This document shows positions 1-52,062 of a stretch of DNA of 64,000 nucleotides, piece by piece. Each line of letters starts with the position of its first letter. Position 1 is the first letter of the stretch. Position numbers and translations under genes: made by a program. Under the pieces are notes generated by a model that had not been told where the DNA came from, ran no database searches, and was given only the letters and a program-made list of their open reading frames with translations. This DNA is from Bacteroides mediterraneensis (GTDB lineage Bacteria > Bacteroidota > Bacteroidia > Bacteroidales > Bacteroidaceae), in the NCBI RefSeq assembly GCF_016900355.1, contig NZ_JACJKA010000005.1, positions 1 through 64,000 on the forward strand, written 5' to 3'.

Positions 1-65
1 ACATCTTCGTTTGTTTATCTAAAGTCTTTCAAAGAACTATCTTTTCTTGAGCTCCCGTTTCAGCG

Positions 66-127
66 GGAAAGCGTTTGCAAAGGTAAGGCGTTTTTTCTTT
101 CCCTCCAAATTTTTCCGAAAGTTTTTT
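66..127. repeat. GCAAAGGTA-type dispersed repeat, copy A
   Basis: This shares with 270-333 the order GGAAAGCG, TTGCAAAGGTA, a T-run with CTTTCC, CAA, then TTTT. A short CCCG/CGGG hairpin precedes it. The type is recalled as common in Bacteroides intergenic or rrn-flanking DNA, but its function is unknown. Confidence 0.55.
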
Positions 128-269
128 CGAAAAAGTTTTTCAGGGTGACCTCCCGGGGCTTATCCTTTTCTCGCTCCCTTGCCGTCTTGCAAGGTAAGAT
201 ACTCGGGTGCAGTGCCTTCAAGTGTCTGCCTCTCTTTGTCAGTCTGTCATTCTCAGCGGCTCTCCCTCT

Positions 270-333
270 CGAAAGCGGTTGCAAAGGTACGCACTTTTTC
301 CTTTCCTGCAACTTTTACGCAATACTTTTTTGT
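270..333. repeat. GCAAAGGTA-type dispersed repeat, copy B
   Basis: This is the second copy of the element at 66-127, in the same orientation. It reads CGAAAGCGG, TTGCAAAGGTA, a T-rich stretch with CTTTCC and GCAACTTTT. A weaker GCAAGGTAAG trace lies between the two copies near 188. Confidence 0.55.
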
Positions 334-358
334 AGATTTTTTGCAGATTTTTTGTAAA
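326..358. repeat. triple 11-nt direct repeat
   Basis: Three perfectly adjacent units: TTTTTTGTAGA (326), TTTTTTGCAGA (337) and TTTTTTGTAAA (348). The 11-nt period is one helical turn, so the T-tracts are phased, a layout expected to bend DNA. Confidence 0.7.
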
Positions 359-507
359 TTGCTGTGAACAAGACGGTTACAGGTGAACATTTTTTGATGC
401 TTCCAAAGATGGGCAGAAAAGGTCCTACATTATGTATTTCGCGCGGGCGCGTACGTGCGCACATATATACTCGCACCGCAGGCACATTTTTTTCAGAGAC
501 TCCCGAC

Positions 508-610
508 TTTTTCTATGTTTTCCTCTCGGGAAACGTAGGTTTCCGCTCTGGAAAACGTACGTTTCTCGGCAGGGAAACATACGTCTCCCCTGACGGAAAC
601 ATAGAAAACT
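508..610. repeat. 22-bp-period palindrome array 1
   Basis: Five units have 8-bp cores starting at 511, 533, 555, 577 and 599, exactly 22 bp apart. The cores read TTCTATGT, ACGTAGGT, ACGTACGT, ACATACGT and ACATAGAA. The inner units are near-palindromes of the form GGAAACGTACGTTTCC, separated by 5-6 bp GC-rich spacers. The two outer cores are exact mirror images, so the whole array is a large imperfect palindrome. Confidence 0.85.
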
Positions 611-4078: not shown

Positions 4079-5233
4079 ATGAAAAGCATGAATAAATCTA
4101 TTTTAGGGGCAAGTATCATTCTTGCAGTATTGAGCGGTTGCGCTTCCAAACAAGCCCAGCAACCTGAACTGACATTATCAGGCTTGAACCCTGCTAACTT
4201 TGAAACTTCAGTGGGAGGGAAACCTGTCAAACTCTATACGTTGAAAAATCATCAAGGCATGGAAGTCTGTGTCACCAACTTTGGAGGACGTCTGGTCTCA
4301 ATCATGGTCCCGGACAAAACCGGCAAGATGACAGATGTAGTCCTTGGCTTCGACAGCATTGCTGATTATCAGAATATCCCCAGTGATTTCGGTGCAGCCA
4401 TCGGACGATATGCTAACCGAATCAACAAAGGAAAAATGACCATTGACGGACAGGAAATCCAACTTCCGACAAACAACTTCGGCCATTGCCTACACGGAGG
4501 TCCTACCGGATGGCAATATCAGGTATATGATGCCAATCAAACCAATGACAGTACCATTGTGCTGACTATGAAATCACCGGATGGAGACAACAATTTCCCG
4601 GGCAACGTCACTGCACATGTCACCTACTCTCTGACTGCTGACAATGCCATCGACATCCAGTATGATGCAACGACTGACAAAACAACCGTCATCAATATGA
4701 CGAACCACTCTTACTTCAACCTGAGCGGCGACCCGTCAAAACCAGCTACCGACCACATCCTTTATGTAGCTTCCGACAGCATCACTCCGGTAGACAGTAC
4801 CTTCATGACCACAGGTGAAATGATGGCAGTGAAAGATACTCCGTTCGACTTTAATACACCGAAAACTATCAGCCCATCAGTGACCGACTTCAGCAACGAG
4901 CAAGTGAAATTCGGCAACGGATTCGACCACAACTGGGTATTGAAAACAAAAGGTGATATCAGCCAAGTAGCAGCTAAACTGACCTGCCCAACCAACGGTA
5001 TCAGTTTGGAAGTCTACACTAACGAACCGGGTATCCAGGTATATACCGGAAACTTCCTCGACGGCACAGTAAAAGGAAAGAAAGGTATTGCCTATCCGCA
5101 GCGGGCTTCTGTTTGCTTGGAAACACAGCACTATCCTGACAGCCCCAACAAACCACAATGGCCTTCTGTTATCCTGACTCCGGGACAAACTTACCAGAGC
5201 CACTGTATCTTCAAGTTTACAGTAGAAAAATAA
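4079..5233 (+). CDS. exported aldose 1-epimerase (mutarotase) lipoprotein
   Basis: This galactose-mutarotase (GalM-type) protein of 384 residues interconverts sugar anomers. It begins with a lipoprotein signal (LSGC, Cys near residue 21), so it should act in the periplasm or at the outer membrane. The conserved residues are present: GAAIGRYANRI, LHGG (first catalytic-region His), NMTNHSYFNL (catalytic His) and the C-terminal CLETQHYPDSPN. The ATG at 4079 is used; an alternative ATG three codons in gives an equally good signal. It leads the mutarotase-araR-araD-araA unit behind a candidate AraR operator. Converting arabinose anomers before uptake is the likely job. Confidence 0.88.
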   Translation: MKSMNKSILGASIILAVLSGCASKQAQQPELTLSGLNPANFETSVGGKPVKLYTLKNHQGMEVCVTNFGGRLVSIMVPDKTGKMTDVVLGFDSIADYQNIPSDFGAAIGRYANRINKGKMTIDGQEIQLPTNNFGHCLHGGPTGWQYQVYDANQTNDSTIVLTMKSPDGDNNFPGNVTAHVTYSLTADNAIDIQYDATTDKTTVINMTNHSYFNLSGDPSKPATDHILYVASDSITPVDSTFMTTGEMMAVKDTPFDFNTPKTISPSVTDFSNEQVKFGNGFDHNWVLKTKGDISQVAAKLTCPTNGISLEVYTNEPGIQVYTGNFLDGTVKGKKGIAYPQRASVCLETQHYPDSPNKPQWPSVILTPGQTYQSHCIFKFTVEK

Positions 5234-40636: not shown

Positions 40637-41002
40637 CTATTTGTCTTCCCGCTTCTCAATCAGGTCGATAATCTCGTTCAGCTCGTCCTTGGAGATTTTC
40701 TGCTCCTTGGCGAAGAACGACACCATCTCCTTGTAAGAGTTGGCGAAATAGTTGCGCACAAGGTTGCCCACCGAATTGCGGGTATATTCCTCCTGCGCTA
40801 CCAGCGGCGTATAGCGGTAAGTGTTCCCAAACTTTTCGGCCTTCAGGTAGCCTTTCCGCTTCAGGTTGTTCACAATCGAGGCCACCGTGGTGTAAGGCGG
40901 CTTCGGCTCGTCATAACATGCCACGATTTCTTTCACGAAACACGGTCCCAAATGCCAGATGAAACGCATGGTCTCTTCTTCCTGATAAGTTAGCTTTTCC
41001 AT
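40637..41002 (-). CDS. BlaI/MecI/CopY-family transcriptional repressor
   Basis: A 121-residue winged-helix protein: LTYQEEETMRFIWHLGPCFVKEIV and the recognition helix PPYTTVASIVNNLKRKGYL, with C-terminal dimerisation helices. Relatives repress genes until cleaved by a BlaR1-type peptidase. The partner peptidase gene follows 40 nt downstream. A dyad overlapping its own promoter (41038-41052) suggests autorepression. No beta-lactamase gene is nearby, so antibiotic sensing is not implied. Confidence 0.9.
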   Translation of the reverse strand: MEKLTYQEEETMRFIWHLGPCFVKEIVACYDEPKPPYTTVASIVNNLKRKGYLKAEKFGNTYRYTPLVAQEEYTRNSVGNLVRNYFANSYKEMVSFFAKEQKISKDELNEIIDLIEKREDK

Positions 41003-41222: not shown

Positions 41223-41327
41223 TCGTTTTTTACGTTTCTCTGTCCAGAAACGTACGTCTTTCCTGGCGGAAACGTAGGTTTCCCTGCCACGAAACGTACG
41301 TTTCCAGTAAGGAAAACGTAAAAAAGG
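41223..41327. repeat. 22-bp-period palindrome array 3
   Basis: Five cores start at 41228, 41250, 41272, 41294 and 41316, exactly 22 bp apart: TTTTACGT, ACGTACGT, ACGTAGGT, ACGTACGT and ACGTAAAA. The outer cores are mirror images, as in array 1, and inner units again read GGAAACGTAGGTTTCC-like. Arrays 1 and 3 are clearly the same element type, about 41 kb apart. Confidence 0.88.
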
Positions 41328-41497: not shown

Positions 41498-42103
41498 ATG
41501 AAAAAAATCAGTAGAATCTTAGGAATGACGGCGGCGTGCCTGCTCTGTCTGTCACTGAATGTGACAGCCAACCCATCCGCCAGCCACCTGTCACAGAAAA
41601 ATGGAGAAACCGTTATCTGCCGGGGAGTAGAAGCACACACTTCCGGACCGATGGTCAAAGTGGGAAAAACAGCCCCCGACTTTCGGGCGGTCAATGCGAA
41701 AATGGAAGAGGTCAGTTTGTCGGACTACAAAGGGAAGAAAGTGATTCTGAATATTTTCCCCAGCTTGGACACGCCGACATGTGCGCTGTCTGTCCGACAG
41801 TTTAATGCCAAGGCAGCAGGACTGGAAAATACCGTAGTTTTATGCCTTTCCATGGATCTGCCTTTCGCGCAATCACGTTTCTGTTCTACCGAAGGACTCG
41901 ACAACGTAGTGCCGCTGTCGGTGTTCCGCAGCCGGGATTTTGTCACGAACTACGGTCTGCAATTAGCTGATGGTCCGCTGGAAGGACTGATGGCACGGGC
42001 GGTCATCGTGGTGGATGAAAATGGGAAGGTATGCTACACGCAGCTGGTGAAGAACATCTCCAATGAGCCTGATTATAAAGCCGCACTGAAAGCCGTGCAA
42101 TAA
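41498..42103 (+). CDS. tpx: thiol peroxidase with export signal
   Basis: The 201-residue product from ATG 41498 has a signal peptide ([20 protein letters not shown]), unusual because well-known Tpx proteins lack one. The Tpx core follows: [14 protein letters not shown], the peroxidatic Cys in [16 protein letters not shown], and the resolving Cys in [13 protein letters not shown]. It reduces peroxides using thioredoxin-type electrons, here probably in the periplasm. It is divergent from the BlaI/M56 pair and near the thioredoxin lipoprotein, a plausible electron donor. Confidence 0.92.
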
Positions 42104-50967: not shown

Positions 50968-52062
50968 TCAATTCAATTTTATTCGGGCGGTATAAGGTCC
51001 TGCCACTCCTTCCCACTCGCGGTTTCCTTTTTCTACAAACTCCTGAAATACGACCTCCTCGTTGAACTTCAGTCCGGGCAAGAAAAAAACGCCCTCTTCA
51101 GTAGCCATATATCCCGACCCCAACGCCGTGTAATACGTGCTGCCATCGTAGCCTTCCACCGTCTTTTCCGGCTGCTCGTTCTTGTAGAACAGCTCATACT
51201 GCAAACGGTCGTAACGGGCCACCCGTTCTCCATTCTCCCGCGTATGTCCATAATGATAAGTCATACGGTCGTCCATCAGCGTATACCCAAAATCCATGGT
51301 ACTCTGATACACCACCTCTCCGGTGGCCGTCAACAACACCTGTAAAACACAGGGACGTTGAGATTTCTGGCTGCCTGCGACAAAAGAGCGTTTCCGAAAC
51401 CGTTCTTTCCGGTCAATCCGCCGTTGCATCCGTTCCTTCCATTCCTCCATCGAGAAATCGAGAGGAGTCAGTTCAATCCATTCGGAACCTTCCCCCAGAT
51501 AGTTTGCTGTACGCAACACGATTTTGTCTTTCTCCACACGTACCGGAGAAAATCGGTTTTCCACATTGACTTCAAATCCTTTTAGCTGATCGAGCATAGT
51601 AGGCGTCGTCAAAATCAGGTTCAATCCCTCCGCCACCTTTATCTCATAGTTTGCCTCCATCACCTCCAGATTGAATTCCGGAGCATAATAGGTTTTTCGC
51701 TCCATTTCCGTTTGGTCAGCGTCCGACTGCCGGTAAGCGATATCCGTCAGCATCTTCAAAGTACCGTCGGGTTGGAACTTCACAAACAGATTGTAGCCAC
51801 CCACGCCCAGACGGCGGGATAAGATTTCAGGATACAACGAGTTGTAATTTGTCTTTATATTTTCGGTGATATTCGTATTCAAATAATTGTCCACTTGCGG
51901 GAAATAACGCACCAGCCATCCGTTTTCGGCTTGACACAAGCGTTCCCGGAAATCCTTTGCCGCCGGCAAGTCCTCAATATTACTCACCGATACAGGTTCC
52001 TGCTTGCTGCACCCCATACCTAATCCGCAAACCATCACTATGCAAAACATCAATTTTTTCAT
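50968..52062 (-). CDS. DUF4302 lipoprotein
   Basis: From the internal ATG at 52062 (MKKLMFCIVMVCGLGMGCSKQ) this is a 364-residue lipoprotein; the frame is open at 52080, which would overlap the preceding gene by 4 bp. The AKDFRERLCQAENGWLVRYFPQ opening and GGYNLFVKFQPDGTLKM core fit DUF4302, a Bacteroidota family found near SusD-like genes. Function unknown, presumably a surface-exposed binding protein. Confidence 0.75.
   Translation of the reverse strand: MKKLMFCIVMVCGLGMGCSKQEPVSVSNIEDLPAAKDFRERLCQAENGWLVRYFPQVDNYLNTNITENIKTNYNSLYPEILSRRLGVGGYNLFVKFQPDGTLKMLTDIAYRQSDADQTEMERKTYYAPEFNLEVMEANYEIKVAEGLNLILTTPTMLDQLKGFEVNVENRFSPVRVEKDKIVLRTANYLGEGSEWIELTPLDFSMEEWKERMQRRIDRKERFRKRSFVAGSQKSQRPCVLQVLLTATGEVVYQSTMDFGYTLMDDRMTYHYGHTRENGERVARYDRLQYELFYKNEQPEKTVEGYDGSTYYTALGSGYMATEEGVFFLPGLKFNEEVVFQEFVEKGNREWEGVAGPYTARIKLN

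Follow-up and report, generated by a model that had tools for sequence, protein, structure and literature searches.

Dispersed arrays of four 22-bp dyads in Bacteroides mediterraneensis and their linkage to genes for predicted HU-winged-helix proteins

Repeats of the REPIN and BIME type, with their RAYT transposases, are dispersed, palindromic and intergenic elements that are lineage-specific and tied to one gene. The sites of MatP (matS), Noc, SlmA and ParB (parS) are dispersed and palindromic as well; each set serves one dimeric protein, is not confined to promoters and consists of single sites. CRISPR arrays are repeats parted by unique spacers of tens of bases. In Porphyromonas gingivalis, the BrickBuilt MITE is an intergenic, dispersed element of 19 copies, in which a 23-nt unit is present in 1 to 22.8 copies together with a leader and a tail with IS5-type ends (PMC4596501). 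The same paper mentions tandem repeats of 41, 23 and 22 nt described earlier in strain W83 without exact locations (PMC4596501).

Here we analyze a 64,000-nucleotide stretch of Bacteroides mediterraneensis DNA (the window) and, within it, an array of palindromes that a sequence-only reading had presented as one of two unlinked copies of the same design. The features concerned are as follows.

41226..41325, strand., array 3, a family-1 element of 100 bp composed of T6, four 22-bp dyads and A6 (read directly)
41232..41253, strand., array 3 dyad unit 1, ACGTTTCTCTGTCCAGAAACGT (read directly)
41254..41275, strand., array 3 dyad unit 2, ACGTCTTTCCTGGCGGAAACGT (read directly)
41276..41297, strand., array 3 dyad unit 3, AGGTTTCCCTGCCACGAAACGT (read directly)
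41298..41319, strand., array 3 dyad unit 4, ACGTTTCCAGTAAGGAAAACGT (read directly)
40637..41002, strand -, penicillinase-repressor (BlaI-type, PF03965) gene, left neighbor of array 3 (profile match)
41498..42103, strand +, redoxin (PF08534) gene, right neighbor of array 3 (profile match)
509..608 with flanks, dyads 515-602, strand., array 1, the second family-1 element of the window (same design as array 3)
14655 to about 14790 (end approximate), strand., third array of the window, of another family, with 22-bp units RCGTTT-N6-AAACGY-N4
Contig C33 50838-51527, outside the window, P0002 gene, encoding an HU-HIG protein with a predicted C-terminal winged helix, 230 aa (proposed partner)

Array 3 is bounded by a T-run on the left (41226-41231) and an A-run on the right (41320-41325), and its four abutting dyads take the form ACGTTTCC-N6-GGAAACGT with changes. 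The five 8-mer cores named in the sequence-only reading lie exactly where it placed them, and correspond to the junctions of the dyads: one half, three full and one half. As it had also stated, arrays 1 and 3 have the same design with different spacers on direct reading, but the likeness was slightly overdrawn in two respects. The mirrored end units said to be common to both are present in array 3, whereas array 1 ends in TTCTATGT and ACATAGAA; and the supposedly common core sequence does not extend to the third core of array 1, which reads ACATACGT. The placement of array 3 between a BlaI-type gene (minus strand) and a redoxin gene (plus strand) is borne out at the level of domains by the PF03965 and PF08534 matches.

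On an architecture score that combines the 22-bp period with dyad symmetry, arrays 1 and 3 each reach 1.42; when the window was simulated 40 times by a first-order Markov model, the highest value was 1.00. Judging from the sequence, array 1 probably lies upstream of an rRNA operon that runs off the start of the contig, and the leader beside it (window 1-500) resembles that at two other loci, L024 and L033, both of which carry a 16S rRNA start. The third array of the window does not belong to family 1; it has an A-run on its left and a T-run on its right and lies between two convergent genes.

The count of two copies was an underestimate. A search of the whole genome (3.53 Mb in 107 contigs; labeled G000) with GGAAACGTACGTTTCC, allowing up to 3 mismatches, gave 121 matches versus 19 for the reversed control, and a sequence model built from 31 arrays identifies 33 family-1 arrays (66 matches on both strands), 31 of them by construction. 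Array 3, itself included in the model, is matched at 41227-41324 on both strands with E values of 7.1e-22 and 1.4e-19. The first 31 arrays fetched comprise four units each and align over 100 columns without a gap. The dinucleotide TA is invariant at all three internal junctions of this alignment, the GTTT/AAAC arms are nearly invariant, and the middle of the spacer is close to random. The units abut, the variable part of ~6 bp lies inside each dyad and there are no spacers of tens of bases, which sets these elements apart from a CRISPR array.

By mechanical ORF calling the family-1 arrays are intergenic, yet 10 of the 31 overlap an unrelated frame longer than 80 codons (226 at most), which we take to be spurious. 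With two arrays at contig ends left out, the orientation of neighbors could be classified at 29 loci, giving 14 divergent, 12 codirectional and 3 convergent arrangements; these counts are rough, because the neighboring ORFs were called mechanically. The neighbors, with names such as nadA, cmk and uvrA read from translations alone, look unrelated, and since other family-1 arrays adjoin unrelated genes, the BlaI-type and redoxin neighbors of array 3 look incidental. DNA resembling an rRNA leader is present at 6 of the 31 loci, and an Rfam search of 15 loci (seven from this genome) found 16S rRNA starting in two loci of this genome. In the same search, FopS small-RNA genes (RF04319) were found within a few hundred bases of family-1 arrays at nine loci, five in this genome (L022, L024, L028, L031 and L033) and the remainder in a near relative, G007 (L074, L077, L093 and L101); at most of these, rRNA or rRNA-leader DNA lies on the opposite side.

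G007 has counterparts at matching places for 28 of the 33 family-1 arrays, comprising 27 pairs and an additional pair (L023/L313) found on inspection. For array 3 (L009) and for L012, L021 and L032, one flank alone aligned between the two genomes. Over the 27 pairs, identity is 99.5% at the TA centers, 93.6% in GTTT/AAAC, 73.8% in the spacers and 71.6% in the six outside bases; 5 of these pairs are rRNA-linked and could be mispaired paralogs, and the other 22 give similar values. In the four most diverged pairs, array 3 included, the corresponding identities are 97% for TA centers, 89% for GTTT/AAAC and 47% for spacers, the core identities being in part ascertainment because the arrays were found by their cores. 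Occupation of the same places in both genomes is not ascertainment. One array of G007 (L091) has five units where its ortholog here (L039) has four, indicating gain or loss of a unit.

The gene type that recurs beside arrays across species encodes an HU-HIG protein with a predicted winged helix (HU-wHTH). In this genome, a family-1 array (C33, model match 51552-51649) lies ~23 bp upstream of the P0002 gene, and the distance from the gene of this type to its local array is ~23 bp in G007 and ~45 bp in G001, G017 and G021 (the G021 gene match being partial). P0002 is a member of PF18291 (HU-HIG) by score, with 92.5 bits over residues 1-126 against a cut-off of 26.2, for a profile that picks up plain HU proteins as well, in 9 of 14 control genomes; against HU_rel (TIGR01201) it remains below the cut-off, with 56.2 bits versus 68.6. 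The AlphaFold model comprises an HU fold and a winged helix with a local pLDDT of about 90 and a pTM of only 0.56. The predicted winged helix is formed by helices 142-155, 161-168 and 172-184 and strands 188-191 and 198-201, also at a pLDDT of about 90. The HU part matches HU structures by sequence, and fold matches of the model are weak, those in the PDB beyond 4FMR having E above 0.001. P0002 is thereby predicted to be an HU domain fused to a winged helix. Homologs are present in 55 of 60 genomes of the genus, which is probably Phocaeicola: among the matches listed for the NadA-like protein beside one array, the best reach 81-90% and come from Phocaeicola and Bacteroides genomes. The homolog in G082 is 76% identical and its own upstream array scores only 1.02; G082 has 18 places similar to the array stretch of one family-1 locus.

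We scored the 300 bp upstream of sampled genes and counted an array at a score of at least 1.15. HU-wHTH genes have one in 33 of 49 cases within the genus and in 7 of 15 beyond it, compared with 1 of 20 for HU-HIG genes lacking a winged helix, 1 of 12 for plain HU genes and 8 of 441 for other genes (Fisher: 33/49 versus 8/441, p 1e-31; 40/64 versus 1/20, p 4e-6). The sampled HU-wHTH genes are related, not independent, and 20 of the 49 genus genes, as well as 20 of the order-level regions, were hand-picked from listings. At this threshold no upstream array was found for 16 of the 49 genus and 8 of the 15 outside-genus genes. Genes with and without the winged helix were sorted by length (190 aa or more) and by a reading of the C terminus. 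An initial threshold of 1.05 gave way to 1.15 once a first set had been scored, in which 28 of 30 loci were parsed and 22 of the 28 had an array at 1.05 and 19 at 1.15. L242 was parsed later, without an array; L246 was left out; L296 and L301 have too little upstream DNA; and L277, at a rounded 1.15, is not counted among the 33. In this genome, an HU-HIG gene without a winged helix (L345) has no upstream array.

In 36 gene/array pairs, protein similarity follows half-site similarity (Mantel r 0.52, p 0.0005), about equally for the HU part and the C terminus (Spearman 0.35 versus 0.38), a correlation that may arise from shared descent of the gene and its upstream DNA. The predicted third helix of the same pairs carries [KR]x[KR]A with a 22-bp period in 15 of 18 and xTTA with a 21-bp period in 12 of 13, an association noticed by eye among related sequences, with relatedness uncontrolled. 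Between paralogs, both the letters of the unit and the period (21 or 22 bp) vary, and the design is constant.

At least two further HU-wHTH genes are present in this genome. Each is closely preceded by an array of a type of its own, and copies of both types are scattered over the genome. Family 2, with 21-bp units around CACASTGTG, gave 66 pattern matches versus 2 in the control, with 22 places among the matches listed; it consists of whole elements of ~97 bp, near-identical at 20 fetched loci and at its own gene, most of them bounded by the inverted ends ATTCTCTG/CAGAGAAT. Family 3 (CACGWWCGTG core, 22 bp) gave 25 matches versus 1 in the control, 24 of the 25 falling in 8 four-unit arrays. 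Family 4, the type of the third window array, gave the most matches of the patterns tried, with 222 unit pairs versus 0 in the reversed control, and 19 of its 20 fetched loci could be classified, as 9 codirectional, 8 convergent and 2 divergent. None of the three HU-wHTH genes found in the genome goes with family 4, so not every 22-bp array need have an HU-wHTH partner.

At two intergenic places (L343/L073 and L338/L089), the array is of family 2 here and of family 1 in G007; L337/L098 may be a further such place, though less clearly. At the L338/L089 place, G001 bears its own array type (L111). Replacement and independent arrival are indistinguishable at these places, because the surrounding intergenic DNA aligns poorly. 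At the G082 site matching L023 (C2, about 554999-557204), an open frame of ~640 codons that is absent from G000 and G007 lies beside the array.

The family-1 model matches 11 of 60 relatives, this genome included. The matches are strong in G000 and G007 and weaker in G001, G017, G024 and G034, because the arrays of these relatives carry other unit sequences. In G001, G017, G024, G002, G021 and G027 the arrays have about four or five units, built from other sequences such as ACGGTTTTGGGACGGAAACCGT or ACGGTTTCCATATCAAGAACGT, and many of those in G001 and G017 have similar inverted flanks just beyond the T and A runs. Palindromy is kept between species while the letters change. We also surveyed 80 nadA loci from named genomes, mostly Bacteroidales, taking one 4-9 kb stretch each and periods of 16 to 30. 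The score reached 1.15 at 15 loci for period 22, at 5 for period 21, at 3 for period 23, at 1 each for periods 16 and 26 and at 0 for the other ten periods, versus 0 at every period in Markov-simulated copies; these counts are upper bounds for true arrays, because at least one or two look like coding repeats. Four-unit 22-bp palindromic arrays with other units lie within ~2 kb of nadA in L177 (Parabacteroides sp. RGIG9024, 4980-5067), L212 (Bacteroides finegoldii, 2777), L203 (B. oleiciplenus, 3441) and L162 (Bacteroidaceae RGIG6315, 5784). A search for shared neighbors across species returned mostly SusC-like and sigma/anti-sigma-like loci, and also the HU gene. G000 and G017 share array sites at BlaI, nadA and HU genes, with a similar place and a different unit, the BlaI site being a weak case (proteins 44% identical, flanks not alignable).

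From arrays 1 and 3 the sequence-only reading had argued for selection on spacing and symmetry, not recent duplication. Selection gains support from the gap-free fit of 31 of the 33 arrays to 100 columns, from the matching arrays of the near relative, in which TA centers and GTTT/AAAC arms are kept and spacers drift, and from the recurrence of the design with quite different units in other species. Arrays 1 and 3 share no spacers. The exclusion of duplication is worded too strongly for such elements, given that another family of this genome, a sister of family 1, is made up of complete copies that are nearly identical.

Array 3 is probably one of 33 dispersed binding platforms for P0002. The sequences themselves provide the architecture, copy number, conservation of place, gene linkage, paralog-specific array types and predicted fold, and this reading is supported by the linkage, the paralog specificity, the dyad symmetry, the two-turn spacing and the fold. 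We infer that P0002 binds as an HU-type dimer, whose two winged helices would read the GTTTCC/GGAAAC arms of one 22-bp dyad and whose HU body would bend the DNA, either close to the variable spacer or close to the invariant TA junction. Because 22 bp is about two turns, four P0002 dimers would lie side by side on one helix face and form one complex of fixed size. On the array before its own gene, P0002 would be autoregulatory. At the other sites its main role may be that of a nucleoid or insulator protein recruited to specific sites, possibly with effects on local transcription. We favor such a role over an ordinary regulon, given that some of the sites are convergent and the neighbors are mixed.

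A broader scheme can be put forward tentatively, at somewhat less than even likelihood. Several HU-wHTH paralogs in each Bacteroidales cell would each have a private, dispersed family of four-unit arrays (8 to 33 sites here) and autoregulate through one of them, with recognition sequence and period changing fast and geometry fixed. They would constitute a set of orthogonal nucleoid proteins, each addressed by sequence, which divide the chromosome or bookmark it, their arrays copying themselves to new intergenic sites and their families interchangeable by place between relatives.

The arrays could instead be a self-spreading, MITE-like repeat, with the HU-wHTH gene beside the founder copy either aiding spread or captured as a repressor, and the dispersed copies without host function. 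We consider this less likely than not, but it has to be taken seriously, as the spread of family 2 is evidently one of complete copies. Much of what we observe would also be expected of a purely selfish repeat. In favor of this reading, the ~97-bp family-2 elements are near-identical and mostly have inverted ends, unit types differ by species, and the flanks outside the T and A runs of many G001 and G017 arrays are similar and inverted. Such a repeat is harder to reconcile with the persistence of family-1 arrays at matching places (28 pairs), and with diverged pairs that keep 97% of TA and 89% of GTTT/AAAC versus 47% of spacers, subject to the ascertainment described above. Moreover, no target-site duplication is evident by eye in family 2, the Y1 transposase profile (PF01797) has no match in this genome, and at the one site where an empty counterpart was sought, the L023 position, an array is present in G007 and in G082. 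It is unlikely that the arrays are operators of an ordinary transcription factor with a regulon of ~33 genes or operons. The array just upstream of the proposed regulator gene and the 14 of 29 classified arrays between divergent genes would suit operators; against this, 12 of the 29 are codirectional and 3 convergent (all rough counts), the neighbors look unrelated and 6 of 31 loci have rRNA-leader-like DNA.

Each unit could also fold into a stem with a 6-base loop, and the palindromy kept between species despite changes of letter would be expected of RNA or single-stranded DNA hairpins acting as terminators, cruciforms or REP-like processing sites. RNAalifold proposes 20 long-range pairs, 4 of which show a compensated change in one or more sequences; its covariation term is, however, unfavorable (+0.48 kcal/mol). 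Over the 31 arrays, Watson-Crick partners are not in excess, whether across cores or from arm to arm, several pairs have fewer of them than expected, and pairing and mutual-information tests against shuffling detect no arm covariation within the genome; the sole pairing excess, at the innermost positions 11-12 of unit 3, has p 0.005 among many tests and 0.047 without paralogs. A terminator scan yields one loose site in array 3 (41231-41254), versus 0.6 expected by chance, and a T-run before and an A-run after have the wrong polarity for a terminator. The lack of arm covariation within the genome thus disfavors hairpins for family 1, which we regard as very improbable, and favors a dimer that reads the sequence of duplex DNA. 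REPIN- or BIME-type repeats driven by a RAYT transposase would likewise be dispersed, palindromic, intergenic and lineage-specific in sequence. However, PF01797 matched in G017 and G002 alone among 15 genomes searched, and had no match in G000, G007, G001, G024, G034, G021 or G027, all of which bear arrays. With the search negative in G000 itself, a RAYT-driven system is scarcely credible.

If P0002 and its paralogs do bind these arrays, the pairing gives every HU-wHTH paralog a directly testable set of sites and offers a naturally occurring series of protein/DNA specificity pairs, at 21 and 22 bp, that might help to decipher a recognition code. A sizeable class of intergenic repeats in these genomes, including some beside rRNA operons, may be accounted for in this way, and the pairing bears on chromosome organization, or on a repressor-like gene spreading its own operators. 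The winged-helix fusion is already contained in the PF18291 description ('HU domain fused to wHTH, Ig, or Glycine-rich motif'), which is silent on DNA targets; what is new is the link to dispersed arrays. In searches of open-access literature, outside which most subscription papers lie, we found no report of the arrays or of their pairing with HU-wHTH genes, and no described DNA target for HU-HIG winged-helix proteins. HU clades were reportedly surveyed by Burroughs and colleagues in about 2017.

Compared with the available part of the BrickBuilt description (PMC4596501), family-1 arrays are similarly intergenic and dispersed, with a short tandem unit, in a bacterium of the same order. They differ in having a palindromic 22-bp unit, a fixed number of four and a link to HU-wHTH genes, none of which that part of the source describes for BrickBuilt. 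Their ends, which are T and A runs, appear to differ as well from the IS5-type ends of BrickBuilt. The arrays do not match BrickBuilt: the unit is 22 bp in four copies in the 31 aligned arrays, with one five-unit array in a relative (L091), and not 23 nt in variable number. Like REPIN and BIME repeats, the arrays are dispersed, palindromic, intergenic, lineage-specific and tied to one gene; unlike them, they consist of four abutting dyads at fixed spacing, and the product of the gene linked to them is predicted to be a DNA-binding protein and is not a transposase. They also resemble the sites of MatP/matS, Noc, SlmA and ParB/parS, as dispersed palindromic sites, not confined to promoters, for what would here, too, be one dimeric protein. 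In contrast to those systems, each site is a fixed array, several protein/array pairs would coexist in one genome, and the sequences change fast from species to species.
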